The translations under genes and the position numbers were made by a program. Below, in pieces: positions 24,873-58,957 of a stretch of DNA of 64,000 nucleotides. How positions within the stretch are numbered: the first letter of the stretch is position 1; the number at the start of each line of letters is the position of its first letter. The stretch is from Comamonadaceae bacterium (GTDB lineage Bacteria > Pseudomonadota > Gammaproteobacteria > Burkholderiales > Burkholderiaceae_C), in NCBI GenBank assembly GCA_947448735.1, contig CANFOS010000006.1, positions 62,001-126,000 of the forward strand, read 5' to 3'. The notes below the pieces were generated by a model. It had not been told where the DNA came from, ran no database searches, and saw nothing but the letters and a program-made list of their open reading frames with translations.

Positions 24873-25163
24873 ATGACCGCCTATTTGCTGCTGGATCACG
24901 TTCTTAATTTCTTGGCTCCCGCCGCTGGTACGGCACTGCTTTTGATGCTTTTGAGCCGCTTTTTTAGCCGATTTTTGGGATCAAAAAAGCCTCTAGGCCA
25001 ATCAATATATGTACAAGCAGCTATTATTTTTATAGTGAATGTGCTGGTGCTGGCTGCTGGTATGGTGCTTTTGGGCAACGATGGCAAGATGGCCACCTAC
25101 GCGTCCATGGTGCTGGCCTCTGCCGTTTGCCAGTGGGTGTTGTGGCGGGGCTGGCGCGTCTGA
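24873..25163 (+). CDS. Small inner-membrane protein containing repeat-derived residues
   Basis: The 96-residue protein has about three hydrophobic helices (FLAPAAGTALLLMLLSRFF, AAIIFIVNVLVLAAGMVLL, MVLASAVCQWVLW). No family was recognised. Residues 37-55 (SKKPLGQSIYVQAAIIFIV) are encoded by a copy of dispersed repeat A, which also builds the first half of the second membrane helix. Outer residues look like a normal small membrane protein, so the repeat was probably inserted into, or tolerated within, an existing gene. The gene is divergent from hemA (66 bases apart). Its role is unknown. Confidence 0.6.
   Translation: MTAYLLLDHVLNFLAPAAGTALLLMLLSRFFSRFLGSKKPLGQSIYVQAAIIFIVNVLVLAAGMVLLGNDGKMATYASMVLASAVCQWVLWRGWRV
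24975..25036 (-). repeat. Family A dispersed repeat, copy 4 (inside a membrane-protein gene)
   Basis: The plus strand reads aaaaaagcctctaggccaat, then atatatgtacaagcagctat, then tatttttatag, the reverse complement of the usual repeat orientation. It is read in frame without stops by the 24873 gene. The upstream stretch gcttttgagccgctttttta (24943-24962) may be the rest of a longer copy. Confidence 0.8.
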
Positions 25164-25327
25164 GCCGGGTTTTTACAGCCCGTCTTGCGCAGCCAAGCAT
25201 GGAGCGGCTCGCTCCACAACTTGTCACCGCGTTGCCGTAAGTTGTGACCGCCAGTGTCCCGATAGGCTTGCAGCACGGGTGCGACGACCGCATAGCCCTT
25301 GGTCAGCCAATAACGCACATGACCCAA
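25097..25327 (-). pseudogene. Possible relic of an alpha/beta hydrolase gene
   Basis: One minus-strand frame encodes YWLTKGYAVVAPVLQAYRDT, which resembles the region after the oxyanion hole in dienelactone-hydrolase-like proteins (x-GYAVVAPxxxGYGxTGG). It then runs into unrelated-looking sequence, and no nucleophile elbow or catalytic His context is seen. The flanking 281-base gap (25164-25444) holds no other candidate gene. The evidence is weak; it could be a chance open frame. Confidence 0.3.
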
Positions 25328-25444
25328 CCCAACGCAACCGGGCCTGCTGGCTGGGTCATTTGAGTCCCTGCAGGGGCCAGCAGCACATCGCCGCTCCTGT
25401 CGTGCGCATGATGAAAACCCGGAAAGACCTCGTCTTTTGGATGA

Positions 25445-26179
25445 TCAGGGTTTGAAAAATTCCACCCGGTCGGTGACGATGCCGTCGATCCCCAGGGCCA
25501 GCAGCCGCTGCACATCGGCTTCGTCGTTGACGGTGTAACTCAACAGTTTAAAACCTGCGCTTTTGGCTTGGGTGACGCTGGAGGTGTCCCACAGCTTGTG
25601 GTTGCCAACGACGGCAACGCAGCCGAGCATCAAAGCCGTTTCCAGCCAGCCCGTCCACAGCTCGTGCAGCAGGAGGCCGCGCGGCAGCTCGGGTGCCATA
25701 TCAAGAGCTGCTTGCAGGGCGTCGGGTTGGAAGGACGACAAAAGTGGCTTGCGTGATTCGTTTTGCCAGAGCCGTGCGGCGTGCTCGGCCACCACGGTGC
25801 CCGTTTGCTCACTCGTGCCGGCGGTGGGTTTGATTTCAATGTTCAGGTCAAAGCCGTTGCTGATGCAATACCGCGCAATGGCGTCCAGGCTGGGGATAGG
25901 CTCACCTTCGTAGGGGGCTGAATGCCAGTGGCCTGCATCGAGTTGGGATAGGGCTTGCCAGGTCTGCTGGCCGGCGATGCCTTGGTCGTTGGTGGTCCGC
26001 TCCAGCGTGTCGTCATGCAGTAAAAAAGGCACGCCGTCGCTGCTCAGTTTCACGTCGCATTCAAACATGCGGTAGCCGTAGCTGGCGCCCATCCTGAAGG
26101 CGGCCAGTGTGTTTTCAGGGGCTAACTGGCCGGCGCCGCGGTGCGCTATCCATGGCGGGAAATACCAATGGTTCATCAA
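25445..26179 (-). CDS. ugpQ: Glycerophosphodiester phosphodiesterase
   Basis: GDPD enzymes release glycerol-3-phosphate and an alcohol from deacylated phospholipids. The signature HRGAGQLAPENTLAAF with the following MFECDVKLSSDG and LLHDDTLERTT gives the catalytic His pair and the metal-binding Glu/Asp residues. The length of 244 residues and absence of a signal peptide point to the cytoplasmic UgpQ type. No transporter genes lie nearby. It is divergent from the large flavoprotein at 26531. Confidence 0.93.
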   Translation of the reverse strand: MMNHWYFPPWIAHRGAGQLAPENTLAAFRMGASYGYRMFECDVKLSSDGVPFLLHDDTLERTTNDQGIAGQQTWQALSQLDAGHWHSAPYEGEPIPSLDAIARYCISNGFDLNIEIKPTAGTSEQTGTVVAEHAARLWQNESRKPLLSSFQPDALQAALDMAPELPRGLLLHELWTGWLETALMLGCVAVVGNHKLWDTSSVTQAKSAGFKLLSYTVNDEADVQRLLALGIDGIVTDRVEFFKP

Positions 26180-26299
26180 ATCCTACGCTTTTTAGTCGCC
26201 ACATCGGGTTACCGGCACCATCGCCCTCGCCCTGGCCCTCATTCGACCATCATCGCGGCGATACGGGCTGCAAGGCGGGCCATCCATGTTGTTTGCCAA

Positions 26300-26341
26300 G
26301 GTGGCCGAGGCCACCTGCATGAACGACCATCCGTTCATGCA
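26300..26341. promoter_or_regulatory. Two adjacent perfect inverted repeats
   Basis: GGTGGCC-GA-GGCCACC (26300-26315) directly abuts TGCATGAACG-N6-CGTTCATGCA (26316-26341). Neither is followed by a T run, so a terminator is unlikely. They lie in the 351-base gap between divergent ugpQ and the flavoprotein gene, where no small gene is evident. They could be regulator sites or a structured 5' leader. Confidence 0.5.
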
Positions 26342-26530
26342 TGGCCACTATAAATGCGCATGAGCAGAAAAAGTTGCATTTTTGTGGTCACGGTTTCAGC
26401 TTTGAGCCCAAGCGTCTGCCAGCGGCGCTTCGCATGAGGGCATCTGGCGCGCCGCTGCAACAAACCGCTCCCCTGCGTTAACATTCTGAGTTGCCTGGGG
26501 TATCGCCCCCAAAGTCACTGAACGCCTACG

Positions 26531-29500
26531 ATGAACGCACCCACCCCACTTGAAGAACTGAACGTTTTTGCGCTTGACGCAAAGACGCAAGAAGACCGCA
26601 TCCGCGAAATCCCGTACAACTACACGTCATTTTCTGACCGTGAAGTGGTCATCCGCTTGCTGGGGGAGCGCGCTTGGGAACTGCTCAACCAGCTGCGTGG
26701 CGAGCGTCAGACCGGCCGGTCGGCTCGCATGCTTTACGAGGTGCTGGGCGATGTGTGGGTGGTGCAGCGCAACCCTTATTTGCAAGACGACATGCTGGAC
26801 AACCCCAAGCGCCGCAAGCTGCTGATCGATGCCTTGCAGCATCGCCTGGGTGAGGTTGAAAAGCGTCGCACGCCAGGCGTGTACCCCCAGCGCGATGCCG
26901 TGGTGGGCGAGCTGCTTGAAGCCGCGCGCGATGCGGTCACCCGTTTTGCCACCTCGTTTGAAGAAATCTACGACCTGCGTCGCTTGGCCAGTCGCAAACT
27001 GGGAAGGTTAACGCAGAAGGACAACATCAAGTTCGACGGCTTGTCGCGTGTCTCCCACGTAACAGACGCGACCGACTGGCGGGTCGAATACCCTTTTGTG
27101 GTGCTCACGCCCGACACCGAAGTCGAAATGGCGGGCTTGGTCAAAGGCTGTATTGACCTGGGGCTGACGATCGTCCCGCGTGGTGGCGGCACCGGTTACA
27201 CGGGCGGCGCGATTCCCCTGACCTGGAAATCAGCCGTCATCAACACCGAAAAACTTGAAGCCATGACCGAGGTCGAAATGGTCCTGCTGCCGGGCTTGGA
27301 CCAGCCAGTGGCCACTGTGTGGACCGAAGCAGGTGTTGTCACCCAGCGCGTGGCCGATGCGGCTGACCGGGGCGGTTATGTGTTCGCGGTAGACCCCACC
27401 TCAGCCGAAGCATCTTGCATTGGCGGCAACATCGCCATGAATGCAGGCGGCAAAAAAGCGGTGCTGTGGGGCACGGCGCTGGACAACCTGGCCAGCTGGC
27501 GCATGGTCACGCCAGATTCGCAGTGGCTTGAAGTCACTCGGGTCAACCACAACCTCGGCAAAATTCACGATGCCGAACTCGCCAGCTTTGAGCTGAAGTA
27601 TTTTGAAGCTGACGGCACAACATTTGTTCGGCAAGAGCGGCTGGACATTCCCGGCAAAAGCTTTCGCAAAGAAGGCCTCGGCAAAGACGTGACCGACAAG
27701 TTTTTGAGCGGCCTGCCCGGCATTCAAAAAGAAGGCTGCGACGGGTTGATCACCAGCGCCCGCTGGATCGTCCATCGCATGCCGGTGCACACCCGCACCG
27801 TCTGCATGGAGTTTTTTGGCAACGCCAAAGACGCAGTGCCCAGCATTGTCGAGATCAAGGACTTCATGTTTGCCGAGCAAAGGCGCAGCCAGGCTGCCGG
27901 CTCACCTGTGTTGCTGGCAGGGCTGGAGCACCTGGACGACCGCTACCTGCGTGCTGTGGGCTACGCCACCAAATCCAAGCGCGGCGGCTTGCCCAAGATG
28001 GTGTTGATTGGCGACATAGCCGGTGATGATGCTGACGCAGTGGCCCGTGCCACCAGTGAAGTCGTGCGCATCGCCAACTCGCGCAGTGGCGAAGGCTTTA
28101 TTGCCATCAGCCCGGAAGCACGCAAGAAGTTCTGGCTGGACCGTAAAAAAACCGCTGCGATTTCGCGCCACACCAACGCCTTCAAAATCAACGAAGACGT
28201 GGTGATCCCGTTGCCGCGCATGGCCGAATACACCGACGGCATCGAGCGCATCAACATTGAGCTGAGCCTGGCCAACAAAATCAAGCTGTGCGACGCGCTG
28301 GAGGCTTTTTTAAGCAAAGGCAATTTGCCCTTGGGCAAAGCAGAAGACGCGAGCGACGTGCCTTCCCCCGACATGCTGGAAGGCCGGGTTACACAGGCAC
28401 TTGCTTTGGTAGCCGAGGCGCGTGGTGTGTGGGCTGGTTGGTTGCAAAACGTCGATGCCTTGTTCCCCGAATTGCAAGACCACACCTTGCGCGCCAGCTG
28501 GAAGTTGCAGCTCAAGGCGCCGTTACAAGCCATTTTTACGGGTGGTGCCTTCTTGCCAATTTTTAACGAGTGCGTGGCGATTCACAAACGCGTGCTCAAG
28601 GGCCGCGTGTGGGCTGCGCTGCACATGCATGCAGGCGACGGCAACGTGCACACCAACCTGCCAGTCAACAGCGACGATTACGAGATGCTGCAAACTGCAC
28701 GCCATGCGGTCGAACGCATCATGGTGCTGGCACGGTCGCTCGACGGAGTGATTTCTGGCGAGCATGGCATTGGGATCACCAAGCTGGAGTTTTTGACCGA
28801 CGCCGAGCTCAAGCCGTTTGCTGACTACAAGGCCAAAGTGGATCCCGAGGGGCGTTTCAACAAAGGCAAGCTGCTGCGAAATCAGGAGCTGAAAACCCAG
28901 GCATCCATTGGCCGTGAGGCTAAAGGCAAAGCTAAAAATGACTTGCAAGAGCCTTTTCTGGCAGATTTGACCAACGCCTACACGCCCAGTTTTGGCCTCA
29001 TGGGGCATGAGTCATTGATCATGCAGCAGTCCGATATTGGCGCGATTGCCGACAGCGTCAAGGACTGCCTGCGTTGCGGCAAATGCAAGCCAGTGTGTGC
29101 CACCCACGTGCCGCGTGCCAACCTGCTGTACAGCCCGCGCAACAAGATTTTGGCGACATCGCTGCTGGTCGAAGCGTTTTTGTACGAAGAGCAGACCCGG
29201 CGCGGCGTGAGCATCAAGCACTGGCAAGAGTTTGAAGACGTGGCCGACCATTGCACGGTTTGCCACAAGTGTTTGAGCCCTTGCCCCGTCGATATTGACT
29301 TTGGTGAAGTCTCGATGAACATGCGCAACCTGCTGCGCAAAATGGGCCAAAAAACCTTCCGCCCCGGCAATGCCGCGGCGATGGTGTTTTTGAATGCAAC
29401 GAACCCGCAAACCATCAAGTTCATGCGCAGCGCGATGGTTGATGTGGGTTTCAAAGCCCAGCGCCTGGCCAACAAGCTGTTCACGAGGCTGGCGCGCAAG

Positions 29501-30490
29501 CAAACTGAAAAGCCCCCGGCAACAAAGGGTGCTGCGCCGATCAAAGAGCAGGTGATTCACTTCATCAATAAAAAAATGCCGGGCGGCCTGCCCAAGAAAA
29601 CCGCGCGCGCCTTGCTCGACATTGAAGACAAAGACTACGTGCCCATCATTCGCAACCCGAAAGCCACCACGGCTGAGACGGAAGCGGTGTTTTACTTTCC
29701 TGGTTGCGGCTCTGAGCGTCTCTTTAGCCAGGTCGGTTTGGCCACCCAGGCCATGCTCTGGCATGCGGGCGTGCAAACCGTGTTGCCGCCGGGCTATTTA
29801 TGCTGCGGTTATCCGCAAAAAGGCAGCGGCCAGTTTGACAAGGCCGACAAAATCATCACCGACAACCGGGTTCTGTTTCACCGTGTGGCCAATACGCTGA
29901 ACTACCTCGACATCAAAACCGTGGTGGTCAGTTGCGGTACCTGCTATGACCAGTTGCAGGGTTACGAGTTTGGCAAAATTTTTCCCGGCAGCCGAATCAT
30001 TGACATTCACGAATATCTGCTTGAAAAAGGTATCACGCTGCGGCCTGAAGACGGTGCGGGGAAGGGGTACTTGTTTCATGACCCCTGCCACAGCCCGATG
30101 AAGCTGCAAGAGCCGATGAAAACCGTCAAGGCGCTGCTGGGCGACAACGTCTTGAAAAACGAGCGCTGCTGCGGTGAATCCGGCACGCTGGGCGTGACGC
30201 GGCCTGACATTTCAACCCAGGTGCGCTTCAGAAAAGAAGAAGAACTGCAAAAGGGCGAGGCTGCGCTGAGAGCTTCGGGTGCCGTTGCAGACAAGGAGAA
30301 CGTCAAAATTTTGACCAGTTGCCCAAGCTGCCTGCAAGGCCTGTCACGCTACCAGGACGACATGAAAAATGGCTTGCTTCAAGCCGACTACATCGTGGTT
30401 GAAATGGCTAACCAGATACTGGGCAAAGACTGGTTGCAGACCTATGTGGACTCAGCCAACCACGGCGGCATTGAAAGAGTCTTGGTATGA
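26531..30490 (+). CDS. Large FAD/Fe-S oxidoreductase (DUF3683, FAD-linked oxidase, ferredoxin and CCG domains)
   Basis: This 1319-residue protein joins parts that are separate in glycolate or D-lactate oxidases. An N-terminal DUF3683-like part (about 1-180) is followed by a PCMH-type FAD domain ([17 protein letters not shown], about 217-233) and a FAD-oxidase C-terminal domain with [14 protein letters not shown] (about 698) and [13 protein letters not shown] (about 742). Two 4Fe-4S motifs follow ([11 protein letters not shown] at about 847, [11 protein letters not shown] at about 911). Two CCG domains end it ([10 protein letters not shown]...CCGYP; SCGTCYD...HDPCHSP...CCGESG). It should oxidise a 2-hydroxy acid and pass electrons on through Fe-S and the heterodisulfide-reductase-like part. 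Substrate and acceptor are unknown. Its stop overlaps the HIT gene. Confidence 0.9.
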
Positions 30491-30915
30491 CACAAGAAGG
30501 CTGCCCACTGTGTGAAGCGGACGGCGGCCTGCTGATTTTCAAAAACGATCAGCTTCGTGTCATTCAGGCCCAGGAAGAAGGCTTTCCCGCTTTTTACCGG
30601 GTGGTTTGGAATTCGCACGTGGCTGAGTTTTCTGATCTGACCCACGAGGAACGCCTCACCTGCATGCAGGCTGTGGTGTCGGTTGAAAAAACCCTGCGCG
30701 AACAATTGCGGCCAAGCAAAATTAACTTGGCCTCCTTGGGCAATGCCGTGCCGCATGTGCACTGGCATGTGATGGCCCGCTTTGACTGGGATAGCCACTT
30801 TCCGGGGTCGGTGTGGGCTGCTGCGCAGCGTCCCAAGAACCCTGAAAGACTGGCGCAACTTGCCTCGCAATGTGCTCAGATTAACCGTTTGTTGGCTGAA
30901 ACGCTGGCATCCTGA
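30487..30915 (+). CDS. HIT-family nucleotide hydrolase/transferase
   Basis: The histidine triad HVHWHVM (about residue 97) is present with the upstream [11 protein letters not shown] segment, in a 142-residue protein starting [12 protein letters not shown] proteins act on nucleotide phosphoramidates or dinucleotides. The ATG overlaps the stop of the large oxidoreductase (ATGA), so the two are probably co-translated. The specific substrate cannot be told from the sequence. Confidence 0.93.
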
Positions 30916-30936
30916 CGCTTCAGAAAGCAACACCAC

Positions 30937-31350
30937 ATGGCCGGCCTGCAAGCAGATTCACCCACTCCGACGGCGCTCACAGTGCATGGCACCTCACGTT
31001 TGCTGGAAGTGGTTTTTTCAGACGGTGCGGCATTCAGCATTCCGTTGGAGCTGATGCGCGTATATTCGCCCTCGGCAGAGGTGCAGGGCCATGGCCCAGG
31101 TCAGGAAGTACTGCAAACCGGCAAGCGTGAGGTGGGCGTGCTGGCGCTCGAGCCGATTGGCAATTACGCGGTCAAGCCCGTTTTTTCGGACGGCCACGAA
31201 AGCGGCCTGTTTTCCTGGGAATACCTTTACCACCTGGGCGCCAACCAGGCGCAGTTATGGAGCGACTACAACCGTCGCCTGGAAGCTGCTGGCTTATCGC
31301 GTGACGCCCCCATGGTGGCGGCGGGCGGCCACAGTTGTAGCAGCCACTGA
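30937..31350 (+). CDS. DUF971-domain protein
   Basis: This is a 137-residue protein with the small fold found at the N-terminus of gamma-butyrobetaine hydroxylases (LLEVVFSDGAAFSIPLELMR, YAVKPVFSDGHESGLFSWEY). Stand-alone DUF971 proteins are often near ubiquinone or Fe-S genes, and ubiE follows here by 119 bases. The C-terminus HSCSSH could bind metal. The role is unknown. No catalytic residues of the hydroxylase are present. Confidence 0.85.
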   Translation: MAGLQADSPTPTALTVHGTSRLLEVVFSDGAAFSIPLELMRVYSPSAEVQGHGPGQEVLQTGKREVGVLALEPIGNYAVKPVFSDGHESGLFSWEYLYHLGANQAQLWSDYNRRLEAAGLSRDAPMVAAGGHSCSSH

Positions 31351-31450
31351 CGCTTAGATGCCTGTCAGTGTTGTTTTTGCATCATAAAAGGCAACAAACA
31401 ATGCAAAGCCCCGTATGCGACTAGGGTTGTAGCCCTGCATTTCCCCGCGC

Positions 31451-32201: not shown

Positions 32202-32249
32202 TGTTTTATTTTTCATTTGCATATCGGTGTTTTGTATAAAGGAGACGTT

Positions 32250-35474: not shown

Positions 35475-35483
35475 GTGACCGTT

Positions 35484-40093: not shown

Positions 40094-41203
40094 ATGCAAG
40101 ACCTGATTGTTCAGCGGCCCGAAGGCCTGTACTGTCCGCCTGGCGATTTTTATATTGACCCGTGGCGTGCGGTAGACCGTGCTGTCATCACCCATGCCCA
40201 TGCCGACCACGCACGCACGGGCCATGGCCACTATCTGGCCGCAGCCCCCTCGGAGGGCGTGCTGCGTTCCCGACTGGGGCAGGCCATTTCGCTTCAGGCC
40301 GTGCAATACGGCGAGGTGGTCACGCACAACGGCGTAGCGGTGTCACTGCATCCTGCCGGCCACGTGCTGGGTTCTGCGCAGGTGCGCTTGCAGCATGGCG
40401 GGCAGACCTGGGTGGCCAGCGGTGACTACAAGGTGGCCCCCGATGCCACCTGTGCGCCGTTTGAGGCCGTGCGTTGTGATGTGTTTATCACCGAGTCCAC
40501 TTTTGGTTTGCCTCTTTACCGCTGGCGACCAGATGCCGAGGTATTCGCCGAGATCAACGCATGGTGGGCGGCCAATGCGGCAGTAGGCCGTGCCAGCGTC
40601 CTGATGTGCTACAGCTTTGGTAAGGCGCAGCGCATTTTGAGTGGTGTGGACGCATCCATCGCGCCCATTGTTGTCCACAGCGCGGTTCAAACCCTCAACA
40701 CCGCTTACCGCCTGTCTGGCGTGAACCTGCCAGACACAAAACTGGTCAGCGAGGTCACTGACCCGGCTGACTTCAAACGCGCCTTGGTGCTGTGCCCGCC
40801 CAGCGCAGCGGTGCGCCGCGCTGGGCCGCCCCGAGCAAGCACAGCCCCCTTGGGGGGCAGCGAAGCACACGAAGTGGCAAGCGTGGGGGCAAATTATTCC
40901 GGCCCATGGATCAAAAGATTCGGTGACTTCAGCGACGCCTTTGCCAGCGGCTGGATGCAACTGCGCGGCGCGCGGAGAAGGGGCAGTTATGACAAAGGCT
41001 TTGTCCTGTCTGACCACGCCGACTGGCCCGGACTGATCGGTGCCATCGGTGCGACGGGCGCCAAGCGCGTCATTGTCACGCACGGCAGCGTTCCGGTCAT
41101 GGTGCGATACCTGTCTGAACAAGGCCTGGAAGCAGGGGCTTTTCAAACTGAATATGGCGACGATTCAGCGGAAGAAAAAGTTGACGTCAAGGTGGCCGCG
41201 TGA
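40094..41203 (+). CDS. Ligase-associated DNA exonuclease (metallo-beta-lactamase fold) with repeat insertion
   Basis: The HxHxDH metal motif appears as THAHADHARTGHGHYL (about residue 33), with ITESTFGLPLY and a late SDHADWPGL that complete the beta-CASP-like site. These enzymes are found next to ATP-dependent DNA ligases and are thought to process DNA ends. Residues about 237-266 (VRRAGPPRASTAPLGGSEAH and flanks) are encoded by a family B repeat and break CPPSA from SGPWIKRFGD, which should be nearly adjacent. This explains the length of 369, roughly 29 above usual. Its stop overlaps the ligase GTG. Activity with the insertion is unknown. Confidence 0.9.
   Translation: MQDLIVQRPEGLYCPPGDFYIDPWRAVDRAVITHAHADHARTGHGHYLAAAPSEGVLRSRLGQAISLQAVQYGEVVTHNGVAVSLHPAGHVLGSAQVRLQHGGQTWVASGDYKVAPDATCAPFEAVRCDVFITESTFGLPLYRWRPDAEVFAEINAWWAANAAVGRASVLMCYSFGKAQRILSGVDASIAPIVVHSAVQTLNTAYRLSGVNLPDTKLVSEVTDPADFKRALVLCPPSAAVRRAGPPRASTAPLGGSEAHEVASVGANYSGPWIKRFGDFSDAFASGWMQLRGARRRGSYDKGFVLSDHADWPGLIGAIGATGAKRVIVTHGSVPVMVRYLSEQGLEAGAFQTEYGDDSAEEKVDVKVAA
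40797..40890 (-). repeat. Family B dispersed repeat, copy 2 (inside the exonuclease gene)
   Basis: The plus strand reads gccgccccgagcaagcacag, then cccccttggggggcagcgaa, then gcacacgaagtggcaagcgt, then gggggc. Its reverse complement starts GCCCCCACGCTTGCCACTTC and matches copy 1 at 33201. The exonuclease frame passes through without a stop. Confidence 0.8.
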
Positions 41204-42894
41204 AGCACTTTGCCGCTCTGTTTACCGAGCTGGACGGCACCACCTCGACCAACGCCAAAGTCGCTGCCTTGCAGGCTTACTTTCAAGTCGTGCCCCCTGA
41301 AGATGCCGCCTGGGCGGTGTATTTCCTGTCAGGCGGCAAGCCCCGGCAGGTGGTCAAAACCGCTGCGTTGCGGGCTCTGGCTTGTGAAGCGGCAGGCATT
41401 GACGACTGGCTGTTTGAAGAGTGCTATCAGGCGGTGGGCGATCTGGCCGAGACCATTGCCTACATCTTGCCACTGGACTTTGAAGCCAGCGATGTTGGCC
41501 TGGCGGTATGGATCCAAGAACGCCTCCTGCCCTTGCGCGGCTTGCATGAAGACGAGATTGCCCAGCGCATTCAACGCTATTGGCGTGAACTCGATTCACG
41601 CGGGCGGTTTTTGCTGATCAAGCTGGTGGGCGGTGGCTTTCGTGTGGGTGTCAGCAAACTGCTGGTGCAACGTGCGCTGGCGGCCCATTCGGGGATAGAC
41701 GCCAAGCGCATTGCCCAGCGCATGATGGGCTATGTGGATGCCAAGGCTTTGCCGACGGCCAGCAAGTTTGAAGCACTGACGGCGCGTTCTGAAGACGGCG
41801 TTCTTGATCTGATGGATGCTGGGCAACCGTATCCGTTTTTTCTGGCGCATCAGCTCGATGCAAGGCTTGCAGACTTCGACAGCAAGCTGGGTCCGGTCAG
41901 TGACTGGCAGGTCGAGTGGAAGTACGACGGCATTCGCGGGCAAGTCGTCAAGCGGGCAGGGCAGGTGTGGGTCTGGTCGCGCGGCGAAGAACTGGTGACC
42001 GAACGTTTTCCAGAAATTGTGGCGCTGGCATCTTTGCTGCCCGATGGAACCGTGCTGGATGGCGAGATCATGGTGTGGGCTGACAACGCACCCGCTCCGT
42101 TTGCCCTGCTACAGCAGCGCATTGGCCGCAAAACACTGGGTAAAAAAATCCTTGCAGATGCGCCAGTGACCTTCATGGCCTATGACCTCCTCGAAGCAGG
42201 CGGCCAGGACGTCCGGGCCTTGCCACAACATGCGCGGCGCTTGCAGCTTGAGCAAGTTCTTGTCAGCACCCAATTGAAGCTGTCACCGATTGAGCGTCTT
42301 GCGTCTTGGGCTGACTTTGCCGCCTTGCGAACGCAGTCGCGCGCACGCGGCGTTGAGGGCTTCATACTCAAACGCATCGATGCTGCCTATGGAACGGGTC
42401 GAACAAAGGCTGACGGTTTGTGGTGGAAGTGGAAAATCGAACCCATGACCACCGACTGCGTGCTGATCTACGCACAAGCCGGTCACGGCAGGCGTGCATC
42501 GCTCTACACCGACTACACCTTTGCCGTCTGGAATCGTCCACCGCTCGACGCTCAGGAGGCAGACGCTGTTGTCAAGGCGATTGAAAAACGCGAATCTGCC
42601 AAGCCCGGTGGACTACAACTGGTGGCTTTCGCCAAAGCCTACTCGGGCCTGACGGATGAAGAGTTCAAACAAATCGACAGCGTGATACGCAAAACCACGC
42701 TGGAAAAGTTTGGCCCGGTGCGCAGCGTCAAGCCAACACTGGTGTTTGAGCTCGGTTTTGAAGGCATCAACCTGAGCCCGCGCCACAAAAGTGGCATTGC
42801 GGTGCGCTTTCCGCGCATGTTGCGTATCCGCACTGACAAGCCGCTGCACGAGGCCAACACGCTGGATGACCTCAAATTGCTATTAAAAAAGTAG
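41200..42894 (+). CDS. ATP-dependent DNA ligase
   Basis: The nucleotidyl-transferase motif I is EWKYDGIRGQVVKR with the adenylated Lys near residue 241, followed by DGTVLDGEIM and EGFILKRIDAAYGTGR. An N-terminal helical DNA-binding domain (about 1-200) and C-terminal OB fold are present; the length is 564 residues. It is the bacterial type that pairs with the exonuclease encoded directly upstream. No Lhr-type helicase or phosphoesterase partner lies next to it. The start is GTG 41200. The last codons and TAG lie in a family A repeat. Confidence 0.95.
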   Translation: MKHFAALFTELDGTTSTNAKVAALQAYFQVVPPEDAAWAVYFLSGGKPRQVVKTAALRALACEAAGIDDWLFEECYQAVGDLAETIAYILPLDFEASDVGLAVWIQERLLPLRGLHEDEIAQRIQRYWRELDSRGRFLLIKLVGGGFRVGVSKLLVQRALAAHSGIDAKRIAQRMMGYVDAKALPTASKFEALTARSEDGVLDLMDAGQPYPFFLAHQLDARLADFDSKLGPVSDWQVEWKYDGIRGQVVKRAGQVWVWSRGEELVTERFPEIVALASLLPDGTVLDGEIMVWADNAPAPFALLQQRIGRKTLGKKILADAPVTFMAYDLLEAGGQDVRALPQHARRLQLEQVLVSTQLKLSPIERLASWADFAALRTQSRARGVEGFILKRIDAAYGTGRTKADGLWWKWKIEPMTTDCVLIYAQAGHGRRASLYTDYTFAVWNRPPLDAQEADAVVKAIEKRESAKPGGLQLVAFAKAYSGLTDEEFKQIDSVIRKTTLEKFGPVRSVKPTLVFELGFEGINLSPRHKSGIAVRFPRMLRIRTDKPLHEANTLDDLKLLLKK

Positions 42895-42962
42895 CATTTA
42901 ACCCTTGTATTTGTTGGCTCATAGCCCTAAAACATACACCTCAAAGGGCTAAAACGAGGTTT
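42879..42962 (+). repeat. Family A dispersed repeat, copy 5 (ends the DNA ligase gene)
   Basis: It begins GCTATTAAAAAAGTAGCATT and ends with aaagggctaaaacgaggttt, which matches the end of copy 1 (cggcttaaaaacgaggt). Its first bases encode the ligase C-terminus (LLKK) and supply its TAG stop. It fills nearly the whole gap to folE, and its middle differs from other copies by small indels. Confidence 0.75.
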
Positions 42963-45118: not shown

Positions 45119-45688
45119 ATGCCTTTAGAAATGACGAAAATTATTCGTTTTCAGGTGCCATTTAAGTCTCTAGGTCAATGGATATGTGGGCAAGAAGCTA
45201 TTCATTTGATAGCATTTACCGTGCTGGTCTGTGTCTGTATCCAGGCATCGGCGGGGCCCCGTTCTGTGCAGACTGGCGTGGTCATGCGGGTGGTCGATGG
45301 CGACACGGTATGGGTCCAAACCAGCCCCAGCCAACCCCTCTTAAAGGTGCGCATTCAGGGCATCGACGCACCAGAAATTTGTCAGACGGGTGGTTTGCAG
45401 GCGCAAGAAGCACTCCAAAACCGGGTGCTGGGACAAGGCGTGACGGTCACCTCGGGCGCGCATGACGACTATGGCCGCACTGTGGGCAAGCTTTACTGGC
45501 AAGGCCAGGACGTGGGCCGCTGGCTGGTGGCCCACGGCCACGCGTGGGTGTACAGCTTTCGCCACAAAAAGGGGCCGTACGCCGATGACTTCGCCCAGGC
45601 GCAGGCGCAGCGGCGCGGGGTGTTCAGCCAAGCCGCCGAAGAACCCCGGTTGTTTCGCCAACGCCATGGCAGTTGTTATAAAAACTGA
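45119..45688 (+). CDS. Exported thermonuclease-family (SNase-like) nuclease with repeat-derived leader
   Basis: The Staphylococcal-nuclease fold is clear: GVVMRVVDGDTVWVQ, VRIQGIDAPEICQTGGLQAQ, DYGRTVGKLYWQGQDVGRWL and AWVYSFRHKKGPYADDFAQA supply the catalytic Arg, Asp and Glu positions. The protein has 189 residues. A hydrophobic leader (HLIAFTVLVCVCIQASA) points to export. Residues about 12-32 (QVPFKSLGQWICGQEAIHLI) are read from a family A repeat, which therefore forms the first half of the signal sequence. An original start may have been lost. Substrate range is not predicted. Confidence 0.88.
   Translation: MPLEMTKIIRFQVPFKSLGQWICGQEAIHLIAFTVLVCVCIQASAGPRSVQTGVVMRVVDGDTVWVQTSPSQPLLKVRIQGIDAPEICQTGGLQAQEALQNRVLGQGVTVTSGAHDDYGRTVGKLYWQGQDVGRWLVAHGHAWVYSFRHKKGPYADDFAQAQAQRRGVFSQAAEEPRLFRQRHGSCYKN
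45154..45213 (-). repeat. Family A dispersed repeat, copy 6 (5' end of the nuclease gene)
   Basis: The plus strand reads ggtgccatttaagtctctag, then gtcaatggatatgtgggcaa, then gaagctattcatttgatagc. The terminal GCTAT-N7-ATAGC is a small hairpin. The copy is open in the nuclease frame and aligns codon by codon with the copies in the 24873 gene and gpsA. Confidence 0.85.
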
Positions 45689-53502: not shown

Positions 53503-53523
53503 TCGTTGATGGTGGCTTGTTGA

Positions 53524-54273
53524 TCAGCGAGGATGACAAACCGCGCAGACGCTGTTGCGCGGCATCCGCACTTCATTGAAGCTCATACTGCGGCCATCGA
53601 GCATCAGCAGCCGGCCCTTGAGCGGCTCGCCTGTCTGGGTCAGCAGCTTCAAAGCTTCGGCCGCCTGCACGCTGCCAATGATGCCGACCAGCGGCGCAAA
53701 AACGCCCATGGTGGCGCACTGTGTTTCTTCAAATGTGCTGGATTCGGGGAACACACAGGCATAGCAGGGCGAAAGCACGTCGCGCGGGTCAAACACTGTC
53801 ACTTGCCCGTCAAAGCGAATGGCAGCGCCAGAGACCAAGGGCTTTCGGTGTTTGACGCAAGCCCGGTTGATCGCGTGACGGGTCTTGAAGTTGTCGGTAC
53901 AGTCGAGCACCACATCGGCCAGCATCACTTGCTCATTGAGCAGCGCATCGCCTGCGCGCTCGGTGATGACGGTCACCTGAACGTCCGGGTTGATGTCGGC
54001 GATGGCTTGCTCAATGGACTGCGCTTTAGGCTTGCCGATGTCAGCCAGTGTGTGGGCTATTTGCCGTTGCAAATTGGTGGCGTCTACCGTGTCATGGTCT
54101 ATCACGGTGATGTGCCCGACCCCCGCGCTGCCCAGGTACAAGGCTGCAGGTGAGCCCAAACCGCCCGCACCAATGATCAGCGCATGCGAGGCCAGCAGTT
54201 GTTGCTGGCCTTCGATACCGATTTCATCTAGAAGAATGTGGCGCGAGTAGCGCAGCAGCTGGTCGTCGTTCAA
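53524..54273 (-). CDS. moeB: MoeB/ThiF-family sulfur-carrier adenylyltransferase
   Basis: The 249-residue protein adenylates the C-terminus of a ubiquitin-like sulfur carrier (MoaD or ThiS). It has IIGAGGLGSPAALYLGSAGV, IDHDTVDATNLQRQIAH and two CxxC pairs (CYAC at about 172, CAVC near the end) for structural zinc. A central DCTDNF loop and a Cys in ETQCATMG are present. MoeB and ThiF cannot be separated by eye, and neither moaD nor thiS lies nearby. It is 18 bases downstream of ctpA. Confidence 0.88.
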   Translation of the reverse strand: MNDDQLLRYSRHILLDEIGIEGQQQLLASHALIIGAGGLGSPAALYLGSAGVGHITVIDHDTVDATNLQRQIAHTLADIGKPKAQSIEQAIADINPDVQVTVITERAGDALLNEQVMLADVVLDCTDNFKTRHAINRACVKHRKPLVSGAAIRFDGQVTVFDPRDVLSPCYACVFPESSTFEETQCATMGVFAPLVGIIGSVQAAEALKLLTQTGEPLKGRLLMLDGRSMSFNEVRMPRNSVCAVCHPR

Positions 54274-54291
54274 GAAGCATCCAAGAAAAAA

Positions 54292-55731
54292 TCAATTTTC
54301 TTTTTTCTCGTTCTTGTTTTCGACCACCGCAGTTTTACTCACAATCACTGGCCGGCCTTTGAGCTGATTGATCGCTTGCGCCAGCGGGAAGTCTTTGTCG
54401 CTGCCCAGCTCAGGTGGGCGACGCTGTTCAGGTGTCTTTTTATTCTCTTCTTCCAGCCGTTTGAGCGCCAGTTCACGTGCTTTTTCGCGGTTTGCGTCTT
54501 TGACTTCTGCGCCCTGGCCACTGCCCAGGTGTTTTTCAAGGTCAGCCTCGCGGGTGCGCAGGGCGGCAAATGGGCTGCCTTCCAGGGTCTCGTCCACCAT
54601 CACGTCAGGAATGATGCCTTTGGCCTGAATCGACTTGCCGCTTGGCGTGTAGTAGCGGGCGGTCGTGAGTTTGATACCCGTGTCGGGCCCTAATGGCCGC
54701 ACGGTTTGCACCGAGCCTTTGCCGAAAGTCTGGTTGCCCATGATGGTGGCGCGTTTGTGGTCTTGCAGCGCACCCGCCACGATTTCGCTGGCAGAAGCCG
54801 AGCCCTCATTGACCAGCACCACCAAGGGCACCGTTTTCATGGCTGCTGGCAGTTTCTTCAGGGGGTCATTGCCCGCACGGCGCAGATAAAACTCGGGTGC
54901 GGCTTTGTAGGTGAACTTGCTTTCAGCCAACTGCCCGTTGGTCGACACCACCGTCACGTTTTCTGGCAAAAACGCGGCTGAAATAGCCACTGCTGCATCC
55001 AGCAAACCGCCTGGGTCGTTGCGCAAGTCCAGTACCAAGCCTTTGAGGTTGGGCTCCTGCTTGTAAATGGCTTCCATCTTGGTGGCAAAGTCGTCCACCG
55101 TGCGCTCCTGGAACTGGCTCAGGCGAATCCAGGCGTAACCCGGCTCCATGACCTTGCTGCGCACCGACTGGGTACGAATTTCTTCGCGGATGATGGTGAC
55201 CGGGAACGTGCGGCTTTCGTCCTTGCGGAAAATCGTCAGCACAACCTTGCTTTTGGGCTCGCCGCGCATTTTTTTGACGGCGTCATTCAGCGACAGTCCC
55301 TTGACCATCGTGTCATCAATTTTGGTGATCAGGTCGTTCGGTTTGAGGCCCGCCCGGTCGGCAGGCGAGCCTTCAATCGGGGAGACCACTTTGACCAGTC
55401 CGTCTTCCTGGCTGATCTCAATGCCGACCCCCACAAAGCGGCCAGTGGTGCCTTCGCGAAATTCCTTGAAGGATTTCTTGTCAAAGTAGGCAGAGTGGGG
55501 GTCCAGGCTGGCCACCATGCCGGTGATGGCGTCTGAAATGAGCTTTTTCTCATCAACAGGCTCCACATAGTCTGACTTGACCATGCCAAACACATTGGCA
55601 AGCTGCTGAAGCTCTTCAAGAGGCAGTGGTGCCAGCCCGCCGCGCGCGACGGCCTGTAGCTGCACGGTGGTCAGCGCACCGGCCACTACACCAATTGAAA
55701 CCCAGCCTGCAATTTTGAGCTTTTGACCCAT
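54292..55731 (-). CDS. ctpA: S41-family carboxyl-terminal processing protease
   Basis: This is a 479-residue periplasmic protease. An N-terminal signal or anchor is followed by a PDZ domain (about 90-175; VGVGIEISQEDGLVKVVSPI) and a catalytic core with Ser in NEGSASASEIVAGAL and Lys in QTFGKGSVQTVRPLG, the Ser/Lys dyad. A Lys/Glu-rich tail ends the protein. Such enzymes trim periplasmic proteins and regulate peptidoglycan hydrolases. It lies between gpmA and moeB on the minus strand. Confidence 0.96.
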   Translation of the reverse strand: MGQKLKIAGWVSIGVVAGALTTVQLQAVARGGLAPLPLEELQQLANVFGMVKSDYVEPVDEKKLISDAITGMVASLDPHSAYFDKKSFKEFREGTTGRFVGVGIEISQEDGLVKVVSPIEGSPADRAGLKPNDLITKIDDTMVKGLSLNDAVKKMRGEPKSKVVLTIFRKDESRTFPVTIIREEIRTQSVRSKVMEPGYAWIRLSQFQERTVDDFATKMEAIYKQEPNLKGLVLDLRNDPGGLLDAAVAISAAFLPENVTVVSTNGQLAESKFTYKAAPEFYLRRAGNDPLKKLPAAMKTVPLVVLVNEGSASASEIVAGALQDHKRATIMGNQTFGKGSVQTVRPLGPDTGIKLTTARYYTPSGKSIQAKGIIPDVMVDETLEGSPFAALRTREADLEKHLGSGQGAEVKDANREKARELALKRLEEENKKTPEQRRPPELGSDKDFPLAQAINQLKGRPVIVSKTAVVENKNEKKEN

Positions 55732-55871
55732 GAAGACACCTTAAAAAGAACTGTCAGAACAAACGATGAAAGAAATATACACCTAGGACAAAAGCCCTGT
55801 AAACCAGTTCCGTGCTGGGTGCCAGTTTCCCCGTTTTGAGCCTCTCTTTTACCTCTGGTTTACACGGACCC

Positions 55872-56567
55872 TCATCCAGCACCCAAATAAAAGTGCCTGA
55901 TCGGCTTCAAATTTGCATCCAGCTCGTACACCAGCGGTGTTCCATTGGGGATGTTCAGGCTCACAATGTCGGCGTCTGACATGTTGTCCAGATACTTGAC
56001 CAGCGCGCGTATGGAGTTGCCGTGTGCGGCCACCACCACCCGTTTGCCGGCTTTCATGGCCGGGGCGATGGCTTCGTTCCAGAACGGCAGCACCCGCTCC
56101 ACCGTGTCCTTCAGGCATTCTGTCAAAGGCACCTGGCTGGGCTGCAGCTTGGCATAGCGGCGGTCGGCCCGTTCACTGCGTTCGTCGCTGTGGTTCATGG
56201 CCGGCGGCGGCACGTCATAGCTGCGGCGCCAAAGCATGACCTGCTCGTCGCCAAATTTTTTGGCTGTCTCCGCCTTGTTCAAGCCCTGCAAGTCGCCGTA
56301 ATGCCGCTCATTGAGCCGCCAGCTGTTGACCACCGGCAGCCAGGTGCGGTCCATCGCGTCCAGCGTGTGCCACAGGGTATGGGTGGCGCGTTTGAGCACG
56401 CTGGTGTAGGCCACGTCAAAGTCATAACCAGCTTCCTTGAGGAGTTTGCCGGCATTTTTGGCTTGGGCAATACCGGTGTCGGTCAGCGGCACGTCAGCCC
56501 AGCCAGTAAAGCGGTTCTCTAGGTTCCAGGTGGATTCTCCGTGGCGTATCAAGACGAGTTTGGGCAT
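55872..56567 (-). CDS. gpmA: 2,3-bisphosphoglycerate-dependent phosphoglycerate mutase
   Basis: GpmA interconverts 3- and 2-phosphoglycerate in glycolysis. The phospho-His motif [20 protein letters not shown] is at the N-terminus and the second His in [23 protein letters not shown] and [11 protein letters not shown] are typical of the dPGM class. The length of 231 residues is about 17 short of E. coli, the difference being at the C-terminus. It is divergent from a rhodanese gene. Confidence 0.96.
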
Positions 56568-56692
56568 AAATAAGGCGGTTTAAAAAGGCTAAATGGGGCG
56601 GAAGTGCAGAAACTGAATCCCATCATTCTAAAATCATGGGCTTGGCACCCATTGCCCAACACTTTCTTTAAAGTTCTTTCCAAAGGCACAAC

Positions 56693-57109
56693 GTGAAATT
56701 TCTGATCGATAACTGGATGCTGATCTCCATTGCCGTGGCCTCTGGCGGCTTGTTGGTCTGGCCCATGGTGGCCAGCGGCATGAATGCAGGCGCATTGAGC
56801 GCTACGGGTGCGGTGACCCTCATCAACCGGGAAAAGGCGGTGGTCATTGATGTGAGCGAAACCGATGAATTTGCAGCAGGCCATGTGGGCGGGGCGAAAA
56901 ATGTGCCGTTTGCCGAGCTGGAAAATAAGCTGCCGCTGGCGGCAAAAAACAAGGCCTTGCCCTTGATTCTGGTCTGCGCCACCGGTGCGCGGGCCCATCG
57001 CGCTGTGGCTGTGGCCAAAAAGCTGGGTTACGACCAGGCGCAGGCCCTCCATGGCGGCCTGAAGGCCTGGAGAGAAGCCAGCCTGCCGGTTGAGAAAGCG
57101 CAGGCCTGA
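56693..57109 (+). CDS. Rhodanese-like sulfurtransferase, membrane anchored
   Basis: The 138-residue protein has an N-terminal hydrophobic helix (WMLISIAVASGGLLVWPMVA) then a rhodanese domain (INREKAVVIDVSETDEFAAG). The active Cys lies in LILVCATGARAHRA. It may supply sulfur or act in redox homeostasis. The start is GTG 56693. grxC follows after three bases and secB after a further gap; the rhodanese-grxC-secB-gpsA order is one I recall from Betaproteobacteria. Confidence 0.92.
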   Translation: MKFLIDNWMLISIAVASGGLLVWPMVASGMNAGALSATGAVTLINREKAVVIDVSETDEFAAGHVGGAKNVPFAELENKLPLAAKNKALPLILVCATGARAHRAVAVAKKLGYDQAQALHGGLKAWREASLPVEKAQA

Positions 57110-57112
57110 ACC

Positions 57113-57370
57113 ATGAACGCCGTCAAAATCTACACCACAGGCACTTGCCCCTATTGCATCGCGGCCAAGCAGCTGCTTGCCAAACGGGGCGTGACGGCGC
57201 TGAACGAAATCCGGGTCGACCTGACCCCGGGTGAGCGCGAAAAAATGATGCAAATCACCAACCGCCGCACCGTGCCGCAAATTTTCATTGGCGATACCCA
57301 TGTGGGCGGCTGCGACGACCTGGTGGCGCTGGACAACAGGGGTGGCCTGTTGCCCCTGCTCAATGCTTAG
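57113..57370 (+). CDS. grxC: Glutaredoxin 3
   Basis: The dithiol active site is CPYC at residues 12-15 in an 85-residue protein with the usual TVPQIFIGDTHVGGCDDLVA. It reduces protein disulfides and glutathione mixed disulfides in the cytoplasm. It is three bases downstream of the rhodanese gene, so co-translation is likely. Confidence 0.96.
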   Translation: MNAVKIYTTGTCPYCIAAKQLLAKRGVTALNEIRVDLTPGEREKMMQITNRRTVPQIFIGDTHVGGCDDLVALDNRGGLLPLLNA

Positions 57371-57444
57371 CGAGAACGCCGCTTTCTTGTCTGGCGTTCA
57401 TCGCATAATCCCCCCATCTTTTCATTGCAACCTGAAAGCTATTC

Positions 57445-57921
57445 ATGGCCGAAGCCAATCTTGACCCGGTGTTTCAAATTCAGCGCGTTTACCTCAAGGA
57501 TCTGTCGCTGGAGCAACCCAATTCTCCAGAAATTTTGCTCAACCAGGAGCAGCCTGGCGTCGATATCCAGCTCGGTGTGGAGGCCGCACCGGTTGCTGAC
57601 GGCCTGTTTGAAGTCACGGTGACTGCCACCATTCACGCCAAGATTGCAGACAAAACCGTGTTTTTGGTGGAAGCCAAGCAGGCCGGCATTTTTGAATTGC
57701 GCAACATGCCGCAAGAACAACTCGGTGCCGTTCTGGGCATTGCCTGCCCGCAAATTGTGTACCCCTACCTGCGCGGCAACGTGGCCGATGTGGTTCAGCG
57801 TGGCGGCTTTCCCCCCGTGCACCTGGCTGAAATCAACTTTCAGGCCATGTACGAGCAGCAGCAGGCCCAGGCCGCTGAGGCTGCCGCTGCAATGCCCGCT
57901 GCGCCACAAATCATTGTCTGA
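57445..57921 (+). CDS. secB: Protein-export chaperone SecB
   Basis: SecB is the tetrameric cytoplasmic chaperone that hands unfolded preproteins to SecA. The [19 protein letters not shown] start and [20 protein letters not shown] end are diagnostic; the length is 158 residues with an Ala/Gln-rich tail. The SecA C-terminal zinc tail that binds SecB is visible at the start of this window. Confidence 0.98.
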
Positions 57922-57943
57922 GGGGTCTCATGGTCGTTAGATC

Positions 57944-58957
57944 ATGAAAATTGCTGTTTTGGGTGCCGGTGCCTGGGGCACAGCGCTGGCCGTCAATGCT
58001 GCATCCCGCCACCAGGTGACCTTGTGGGCGCGTGATGCGTCGCATAGCAAAGCGCTGGCCGACCAGCGGGTCAACGCCCGTTATCTGCCCGACATGGCAT
58101 TGCCTGACAACCTGCGCTTGGCCGGGGGTGCCGCACTTTTACAGGACACCGTCCGGGGTCAGGACCTGATCATCATCGCTACGCCGATGTCCGGTTTGCG
58201 CGGCATGCTGTTGGCCTTGGGTGGCACGTCTGCCCCTGTTGCCTGGCTCTGCAAGGGCTTTGAAACCCCTCAAAAAACCGATAGCCAACCATCATTTGGC
58301 CTTCTAGCCCACGAAATACATAGGCGAATAGCTCCTGATTTAATAGCGGGCGTGTTGAGTGGCCCGAGCTTCGCACAAGAAGTTGCGCGCGGCCAGCCGA
58401 CGGCACTGGTCGCCGCCAGCAAGCAGGCCGCCGTGCGCGACGCACTGGTGGCCGCCTTTCACAGCCCCACGCTGCGGGTTTATGCCAACGACGACATCGT
58501 CGGCGTTGAAGTTGGCGGCGCCGTCAAAAACGTGCTGGCGATCGCGACGGGTTTGTGCGACGGTCTTCACCTGGGCCTGAACGCCCGAGCCGCGCTGATC
58601 ACCCGTGGACTGGCTGAAATGACGCGCTTAGGCGTTGCGCTGGGTGCCAGGGCGGAGACATTGACTGGCCTGTCGGGCTTGGGCGACTTGGTGCTGACGG
58701 CCACAGGTGACCTGAGCCGCAATCGCAAGGTTGGCTTGGCACTGGCCCAAGGCAAAACACTGCCAGAAGCCGTTGCCGCCCTCGGTCATGTGGCCGAAGG
58801 CGTGTACTGCGCCCGCACCGTGGTGCAGCGCGCAGACAGTCTGGGCATTGAGATGCCGATATCACAAGGCGTGGTGGCCTTGCTCGATGGGCAGATCACC
58901 CCGGACCAGGCGGTCGCTGCACTGATGGGGCGCGGACCCAAAGGCGAAGCCCTGTAG
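57944..58957 (+). CDS. gpsA: Glycerol-3-phosphate dehydrogenase GpsA with a repeat-derived internal segment
   Basis: GpsA makes glycerol-3-phosphate for phospholipids using NAD(P)H. The dinucleotide site is [12 protein letters not shown]. The conserved blocks [21 protein letters not shown] and [15 protein letters not shown] (catalytic Lys) are intact. Between WLCKGFE and GVLSGPSFA, residues about 109-135 ([20 protein letters not shown] and the following IAPDLIA) are encoded by a family A repeat. The segment is about seven residues longer than the E. coli equivalent as I recall it. It is a variable surface region, so the enzyme is probably functional. The length is 337 residues. Confidence 0.96.
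58268..58347 (-). repeat. Family A dispersed repeat, copy 7 (inside gpsA)
   Basis: The plus strand reads catttggccttctagcccac, then gaaatacataggcgaatagc, then tcctgatttaatagc. It is in the same strand and frame as in the 24873 and nuclease genes. The start near 58268 is approximate. Confidence 0.8.

Follow-up and report, generated by a model that had tools for sequence, protein, structure and literature searches.

A dispersed DNA repeat of 68 letters is present in a Polaromonas-like genome in 188 copies (profile search of 1.61 Mb, E<1e-3), about a quarter of them within protein genes, and its own bases appear to be kept there at silent positions. We regard the repeat as probably a fixed, putatively functional DNA site. 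The reading we prefer, with a probability of roughly 0.55, is that dispersed elements were inserted and then fixed, that their DNA is kept as a probable recognition site, and that the copies inside genes are tolerated.

The family is genuine and stands above chance. Ten copies lie in the window, by which we mean the whole 64-kb stretch analysed here, with profile E-values from 8e-7 to 2.5e-12 (863 kb searched), while the best hit of a reversed-sequence control has E=2; a pattern allowing up to two mismatches gives 102 hits genome-wide, against 0 when the pattern is read backwards, and an initial pattern whose spacing was wrong had given 0 matches. The repeat consists of blocks of approximately AAATAGGSCTNNAGSCC and AGCAGCTMYTNAATNAATAGC at constant spacing, with about 20 variable nucleotides between them; its palindromic arms GCT..AGC are nearly invariant, and its GC content is 42.5% compared with 57.9% in the genome sample. 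The copies in the window and their host genes are listed in Table 1.

Table 1. Repeat copies in the window and the genes that hold them (s, sense; a, antisense; s2, codons starting at model position 2).
Feature	Position	Strand	Description	Match
Repeat copy	3864..3931	-	overlaps 3' end of ORF 3189-3875	E=2.8e-11
ORF	5266..5895	-	host of s1 copy
Repeat copy	5814..5881	-	near N terminus of ORF, sense s1	E=8.3e-07
Repeat copy	10147..10202	+	intergenic	E=1.5e-09
Repeat copy	22213..22279	-	intergenic	E=1.6e-09
ORF	24873..25163	+	host; 96 aa membrane protein, missed by gene caller
Repeat copy	24972..25038	+	in small membrane-protein ORF, sense s2	nhmmer E=2.5e-12
Gene	26531..30490	+	host; FAD-linked oxidase-like (name by eye)
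Repeat copy	28871..28924	-	antisense a1 in 1319-aa gene 26531-30490	E=4.7e-07
Repeat copy	42876..42936	-	overlaps 3' end of gene 41200-42894	E=8.9e-08
ORF	45119..45688	+	host; nuclease
Repeat copy	45149..45215	+	in nuclease ORF near N terminus, signal-peptide-like region, sense s2	E=8.1e-12
gpsA	57944..58957	+	host; glycerol-3-phosphate dehydrogenase	PDB match 3k96, E=2.4e-67
Repeat copy	58289..58348	+	inside gpsA, sense s2	E=1.5e-11
Repeat copy	61648..61714	-	intergenic	E=9.7e-09

The first-pass annotation had pointed to three genes in which the repeat is translated on one strand and in one frame, and this holds: the copies beginning at 24972, 45149 and 58289 are all read in s2, giving the peptides FLGSKKPLGQSIYVQAAIIFIV and FQVPFKSLGQWICGQEAIHLIA and, in gpsA, a peptide of 22 residues (the nuclease is, judged by eye, presumably thermonuclease-like). 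The stops in s2 ascribed to the non-coding copies at 3864, 10147 and 61648 are present as described, and the copy at 22213, said to be open in that frame, is so in its 3' part but has a stop in its 5' part. The copies number ten and not the eight counted earlier, those at 5814, 28871 and 42876 having been missed, and the shared frame extends to three of the five in-gene copies of the window, those at 5814 (s1) and 28871 (a1) being read differently. The membrane-protein ORF is credible, as all 18 further genomes of the genus in which a homologue was sought have one, and the repeat is in the same phase in 8 of 19 rows of homologues from within the genus (E<1e-3, short search); since the ORF was uncalled, its copy is tallied as intergenic in every genome-wide count. 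Genes were called with a purpose-written caller and not a published tool.

Across the sampled genome, 47 copies at E<1e-4 lie inside called genes (in the first sample this threshold keeps 25 of the 34 in-gene copies found at E<0.1), and 24 of these are in s2 where 8.1 are expected, with one in s0 where 10.4 are expected, the null being 109 copies classed as intergenic. The first sample of 25 in-gene copies comprised 14 in s2, seven in a2, two in a1 and two in s1 (simulated P=0.0004; null of 65 intergenic copies), and the 22 from the holdout contigs C4, C5, C7 and C8 comprised ten in s2, six in a2, two each in a1 and s1, and one each in s0 and a0 (P=0.003). The a2 count is explained by stop codons; the s2 excess is not, and it recurs in the holdout. 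The suggested comparison of intragenic with intergenic copies thus bears out a frame preference beyond the avoidance of stops, but the notion of one open frame is not supported, as 13 of the 47 copies are in a2 and ten in the other four frames (29 sense, 18 antisense overall). In G031, which belongs to another genus with another dialect of the repeat, 20 in-gene copies, called with a gene model that had just 165 kb of training sequence and a few of them doubtful, fall nine in a2, five in s2, three in a0 and one each in s0, s1 and a1; the open frames of 23 intergenic copies there are s0 (9), s2 (5), a2 (4) and a0 (3). A third genome, G023, has 15 in-gene copies (a2 4, a1 4, s2 3, s0 2, a0 1, s1 1), with poor gene calls and several doubtful ORFs.

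The evidence for constraint on the DNA comes from the G071 branch; this genome had served neither for finding copies nor for building the repeat model. Third positions changed there in 6 of 90 high-information columns, 20 of 95 mid and 12 of 34 low ones, compared with 305 of 1064 in flanking codons (high-information columns versus flanks, Fisher P=8e-7), a test covering 19 hosts and three genomes, all from a single genus; counting synonymous changes only, the figures are 1/42 in high-information columns and 210/750 in the flanks (P=4e-5). As the repeat's own bases are held at silent third positions, its DNA, and not only the encoded peptide, appears to be conserved inside genes. Nor is selection on the peptide the main signal, the low-information columns changing faster than flanking codons at codon positions 1 and 2. 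Four pairs of shared intergenic copies differ at 8 of 72 high-information and 45 of 92 low-information columns, a comparison with some selection in it, one partner having served to find the copies, and which was redone on the detection-independent G071 branch. In TruB and GpsA, synonymous sites taken as a whole are not consistently better conserved, and the signal appears only after splitting by column information content: as a mean of all codons in the element, synonymous identity is not raised in TruB (0.561 versus 0.558), is somewhat raised in 12 Polaromonas-type GpsA sequences (0.621 versus 0.542) and is lower in 70 GpsA sequences of other relatives (0.467 versus 0.546).

The sites are shared within the genus. 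Twenty of 25 hosts were compared with relatives, one orthologue being absent from G071 (hence the 19 hosts of the branch test), and the repeat occupies the same site in 17 of 19 host genes in G071 and 19 of 20 in G073, both congeners, and in 0 of 14 in the outgroup family G084. Among the window copies, those at 5814 and 45149 have the same site in G071 and G073, the intergenic copy at 61648 is common to two near relatives, and the one at 28871 is present in G073 (3e-15, short search) with no match in G084. With in-gene sites common to congeners, the copies are not recently mobile, and the earlier description of the repeat as mobile cannot be kept in any recent sense.

How the repeat came to lie in proteins is clearest, from alignment, in glycerol kinase (GlpK), where an in-frame insertion amounts to 18 aa gained relative to two solved enzymes and 19 of 21 aligned relatives; of the exceptions, G070 carries its own insert at this point and one row does not cover the site. 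An insertion is likely in the gene at 26531-30490, the protein of which is 22 aa longer than its G084 counterpart at the repeat site. At most old in-gene copies (gpsA, TruB and YggS versus relatives) no insertion of 22 aa was seen, so that the proposed alignment of host proteins with orthologues lacking the repeat gives insertion in GlpK but not in those three. For gpsA, similar residues (GLLAHEIxAQVAPDLIAG and variants) occur in 31 aligned family loci, of 80 fetched, where the DNA match fades, and the stretch is present without the repeat in a solved structure and an outgroup; the residues at the repeat are mostly native, and gpsA is a weak case on grounds that the first-pass annotation had itself set against its proposal.

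A search of 60 genomes with the repeat model, scoring no more than 84 candidates in each, gave matches in at least 21, all counts being lower bounds, and 30 of 120 genomes have 10 or more pattern hits. From genus to genus the repeat changes in its middle 20 nt, the length of which stays constant. For 14 of 32 sites mapped between genera a copy lies within 80 bp, nine in the same and five in the opposite orientation; with this division a shift of dialect at orthologous sites was dropped as an idea, and common descent of such sites is unproven. At the mapped place of the copy at 22213, G031 has a copy of its own dialect in the same orientation.

We therefore envisage, as a proposal, that a family of DNA elements of about 68 bp would have entered the lineage by insertion, reading frames included, and that the inserted copies would then have become fixed in place. 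What is kept would be the DNA, two blocks at constant spacing with some 20 variable nucleotides between them, probably as a site recognised by a protein that acts on DNA, or possibly on RNA; we infer recognition by such a candidate protein from the constraint. Host proteins may accommodate the element where changes of sequence are tolerated, for instance in linkers, loops and signal peptides, and the frame bias would reflect tolerance of the peptide, in-gene copies surviving mainly in s2 (..QAAPDLIA..) and a2 (..AINLIAA..WAxAQ..), both alanine-rich and presumably harmless. A bolder form, which we put forward tentatively and hold to be improbable as it stands, would make the repeat a genome-wide motif, in a clade of Comamonadaceae type, recognised by a putative DNA-binding protein (for uptake, chromosome organisation or recombination), its wording shifting together with that protein by genus and being kept by selection in coding sequence at a cost to host proteins.

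An element like the Rickettsia palindromic elements (RPE) or REPs, which once transposed, lost its frame-breaking inserts and now decays without function as a relic, would account for the insertion in GlpK and for the patch of low GC3 at the repeat in the genus (TruB 0.45 versus 0.73, GpsA 0.43 versus 0.76), as expected from inserted AT-rich DNA. The intergenic context is also REP-like: the copies lie 3' of genes, with 36 of the 109 in convergent, 67 in tandem and 6 in divergent gaps (18.7, 67.4 and 22.9 expected by bases), and since so few are in divergent gaps the repeat is not a promoter element. The genome's single Y1 transposase match is 101 bp from a copy, but of the 29 Y1 loci taken from other genomes only 2 contain copies at E<1e-3, in one of them on either side of the gene, and the repeat is scarce or absent in many of the genomes concerned, so that mobilisation as a REP by a RAYT is an unproven link and the inconsistency counts, weakly, against a relic. 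The high-information positions held at synonymous sites, and the smaller differences of shared intergenic copies at those columns (a partly selected comparison), make decay without function unlikely. We judge equally unlikely a candidate motif spread by molecular drive, in which a competence receptor prefers DNA carrying it, so that copies build up inside and between genes and each genus has a dialect. Hundreds of copies on both strands, within and outside genes, and a middle section of 20 nt worded differently by each genus at constant length would suit such a motif, as would the orientation and location bias known for uptake sequences in genes, at least in the part of the literature consulted (PMC2346458); copies less than 1 kb apart are also rarer than in a placement null (7 versus 15.7, P=0.01), but this effect is weak, cut-offs of 500, 2000 and 3000 bp giving nothing significant, and block insertion in GlpK and the length of the repeat argue against such a motif. 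No link was seen between repeat strand and local GC skew.

An element conserved as transcript structure, acting in mRNA processing, attenuation or sRNA pairing, might explain the nearly invariant arms and the location 3' of genes, and the proposed stems (66% and 78% paired) have 72.2% of cells paired against 70.5% when shuffled (1/500 for pairing, 16/500 for covariation). Against this, the window has no Rfam match at gathering thresholds, RNAalifold predicts three pairs at -0.28 kcal/mol and none with both sides changed, and in 62 copies from other genomes (of 122, after dropping gpsA-internal copies and eight loci with other offsets) pairing is about the column expectation, 1 of 14 pairs being somewhat above it; neighbouring copies have no clear orientation preference, and genes contain both orientations. 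A structured RNA was accordingly rejected as a candidate, and we consider an RNA-level role quite improbable. Least probable of all is the view of the first-pass annotation, that one open frame of a mobile repeat was selected or targeted, if it is taken with a peptide useful in itself: it would suit the excess of s2 in this genome and of a2 in G031, and several a2 copies form signal-peptide-like N termini, but the two frames lie on opposite strands, the peptides of the element change more quickly than their flanks where column information is low, and the sites are common to congeners and not newly targeted.

Repeats within genes are usually taken as tolerated selfish DNA, and here the repeat's own bases are kept at silent positions of enzymes. 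Silent-site conservation, species-shared sites and genus wording together make it testable whether dispersed repeats are parasites or parts of a chromosome-scale recognition system, and in what way proteins absorb a DNA signal; they also warn that N-terminal or linker segments in such bacteria can be repeat-derived.

Among known systems, the repeat resembles the in-gene repeats of the RPE and REP kinds but lacks several hallmarks that we tested. RPE are palindromes folding into a strong hairpin. Like them, our repeat is short, dispersed and found in frame within unrelated housekeeping genes; in-frame insertion relative to orthologues without the element is seen in GlpK and not in gpsA, TruB or YggS, and, compared with RPE as described, the repeat has species-shared sites, two main frames on opposite strands, DNA-level constraint and, from its folding, no strong hairpin. 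The genus-specific wording resembles the dialects of DNA uptake sequences (DUS/USS), which likewise occur in hundreds of copies on both strands, in and between genes, with an orientation bias in genes, but which, as described in the part consulted, are 10-12 bp long and not bipartite over ~68 bp (PMC2346458). The truB gene hosts both our repeat and, according to the relevant part of a REP survey, RPE-1 in R. conorii; the same source describes GTAG- and CGTC-tagged REPs as tagged palindromes of 20-40 bp that lie near 3' ends where neighbouring genes are convergent or in tandem, the GTAG ones often near RAYT genes, and that occur now and then inside genes, among them truB and those for DNA ligase and tRNA synthetase (PMC3733652). 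Our repeat shares the 3' placement, the scarcity in divergent gaps and the occasional in-gene copies, but is 68 bp long, has GTAG at the comparable place (columns 23-26) in 12 of 76 copies (CTAG 12, GCAG 11, CCAG 9) and has no consistent RAYT link over the Y1 loci compared, most of which come from genomes with few copies or none; the main text of that survey does not name Polaromonas, Acidovorax, Comamonas or Rhodoferax. The Beta-proteobacterial repeat element (BRE), dispersed in Bordetella and Comamonadaceae with 29 copies in Polaromonas sp. JS666, is mostly intergenic with some copies wholly in coding sequences, and the portion of its description consulted (~90 bp, 63.7-78.9% GC in Bordetella, tandem in places) differs in length and GC content from a repeat of 68 bp and 42.5% GC (PMC3110155). 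The small enterobacterial RU repeats have open frames that turn up within annotated proteins, and a signal peptide or transmembrane portion is present in some; they are MITE-like units of 103-168 bp, and their abstract describes no constraint on the DNA of the kind that appears to hold here (PMC2759123).

The repeat is genuine and more widespread than the first-pass annotation reported. The element is about 68 nt long (consensus TTTTTAGGTATCAAATAGGGCTGTAGCCCAATAAATACATGGGCGAGCAGCTACTAAATTAATAGCAA), with two conserved blocks around a variable middle, and a profile built on copies from the organism's own genome recovered 112 copies at E<1e-3 across 863 kb made up of the window and parts of contigs C1, C2 and C3, the top match in a reversed-sequence control with the same profile and sequence having E=2. 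A further 76 copies were found in 748 kb kept out of model building, giving 188 in 1.61 Mb and, extrapolated from the sampled density, about 445 expected in the 3.83-Mb genome. Copies are diverse (pairwise identity among 76 copies: mean 0.56, maximum 0.76), and their GC content is 0.425 vs 0.579 for the sampled genome. In the copy alignment, linked block variants at columns 13-15 (AAA vs TTT) and 53-56 (CC.G vs AT.A) dominate the mutual information, which would fit flipping of short segments or the coexistence of two subfamilies.

Orthologues of 20 of the 25 host genes were sought in three genomes, with G071 and G073 as congeners and G084 as an outgroup from another family; E-values for G073 and G084 come from short searches. 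The repeat lies at the same site in 17 of 19 orthologues found in G071 (GlpK is without it and YggS has no clear match) and in 19 of 20 in G073 (GlpK again without it); none of the 14 found in G084 has a repeat match better than E=0.5. Hosts include GlpK, GpsA and YggS, named with the support of PDB matches (as is UreF, outside the 20), and those that we take to be LeuS, CinA, TruB, Pgi and UbiA.

Within genes the element appears to be constrained as DNA. Its columns were grouped by information content, and changes were scored on the G071 branch, at sites where the own genome and G073 agree, because copies had been detected in the own genome. Third positions changed at 6/90 high-, 20/95 mid- and 12/34 low-information sites, and at 305/1064 in flanking codons (P=8e-7), a constraint masked by whole-element averages; for codons with identical amino acids in all three genomes the figures were 1/42 high-information vs 210/750 flanking (P=4e-5), and the G073 branch gave 19/103 vs 426/1185. 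On the G071 branch, codon positions one and two changed faster in low-information columns (12/72 and 9/78) than in flanks (130/1597 and 73/1715), and therefore the peptide is loosely held.

The window holds ten copies. The first-pass annotation had proposed a frame shared by three window genes, and all three compared copies are indeed read in s2 (sense, codons starting at model position 2), but two overlooked in-gene copies use other frames (table). Because automatic gene calling did not pick up the ORF at 24873-25163, the copy in it is classed as intergenic in the genome-wide figures. Counting only copies wholly within called genes at E<1e-4, the 25 of sample one were distributed as s2 14, a2 (antisense) 7, a1 2 and s1 2, and the 22 of the holdout as s2 10, a2 6, a1 2, s1 2, s0 1 and a0 1. 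Against a null given by how many of 109 intergenic copies are open in each frame, pooled observed/expected values were s2 24/8.1, s0 1/10.4, a2 13/14.4, a1 4/7.4, a0 1/4.8 and s1 4/1.9 (P=5e-6 by simulation, one in 200,000; P=0.003 for the holdout by itself). Frame a2 is thus common because it is usually open, and the s2 excess and s0 deficit have some cause other than openness. In G031, from another genus, the consensus has stop codons in s2 and a2 alike; 20 of its 52 copies lie within called genes (a2 9, s2 5, a0 3, s0 1, s1 1, a1 1), and its 23 intergenic copies are open mainly in s0 (9). We infer that the frame pattern reflects peptide tolerance. In four genes, frame a2 would encode N termini resembling signal peptides (e.g., LFLIAAGLGIQGAGAQ); two copies read in s2, those of window 45119 and of C1:295775, may look similar. 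Rather than one open frame of a mobile repeat, as first proposed, this is a fixed, DNA-constrained element, tolerated by genes in two main frames, and its function is putative.

GlpK carries 18 additional residues at the repeat. Neither of the two solved glycerol kinases compared has them, nor do 19 of 21 aligned relatives; of the other two rows, one does not reach the insert site, and G070 has a 17-residue insert at that place, with only a weak block two match (E=0.15). Glycerol kinase matches L205, L210 and L211 in relatives have one internal stop codon apiece. The protein encoded at 26531-30490 is 22 amino acids longer at the repeat than that of G084 (the G073 protein: 8). No gain of such size was seen for gpsA, TruB or YggS. 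Judged by GpsA, a Comamonadaceae MAG at 98% comes closest among named records, followed by a Polaromonas MAG at 94%. Because relatives keep similar residues (31 aligned of 80 family loci) while the DNA match fades, gpsA is poor evidence for insertion. At least 22 relatives' GpsA loci have a copy at the gpsA start, where block two (AGCTATGAAAATMATAGT in many) includes the start codon.

Intergenic copies are scarce in divergent gaps (6 vs 22.9 expected by bases) and enriched in convergent ones (36 vs 18.7). Pairs less than 1 kb apart are somewhat scarce (7, with 15.7 expected under a placement null; P=0.01, and weaker results at other cut-offs), and copy strand showed no link to local GC skew in the sampled own genome. 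Only one match to a Y1 (RAYT-like) transposase turned up in the genome, separated by 101 bp from a copy.

Locations and dialects of the features discussed (C, contigs of the own genome, G000; L, loci of relatives)
Feature	Location	Strand	Detail
Overlooked in-gene copy	window 5814-5881		frame s1
Overlooked in-gene copy	window 28871-28924		antisense a1
Copy at gpsA start	L101, L082, L135 and others, 2949-3018	+	
Gene, putative a2 signal-peptide-like N terminus	G000:C2:191465		
Gene, putative a2 signal-peptide-like N terminus	G000:C2:202538		
Gene, putative a2 signal-peptide-like N terminus	G000:C3:40579	-	
Gene, putative a2 signal-peptide-like N terminus	G000:C4:136913	-	
Y1 match	G000:C3:75972-76298	-	
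Repeat copy adjacent to Y1 match	G000:C3:76399-76465	+	
Middle dialect, G031			CCGGCGTATTTATTGCCTAAG; 52 copies
Middle dialect, G023			CGCTTGT...ACCTGCGCTGG; 67 copies, looser
Middle dialect, G035			CCCATGTAAA.ACTGCTCAAG; 10 copies

A strict pattern has matches in 51 of 120 genomes sampled from the family, with at least 10 in 30 of those; reversed-pattern controls gave 0-2. The middle 20 nt are worded specifically to each genus at constant length. In the text of the open-access literature searched, we found no description of the element in Comamonadaceae. Among known systems, REPs with in-gene copies are on record in PMC3733652; BRE, according to PMC3110155, is present in Comamonadaceae with some copies within genes, but differs from the present element in length and GC.
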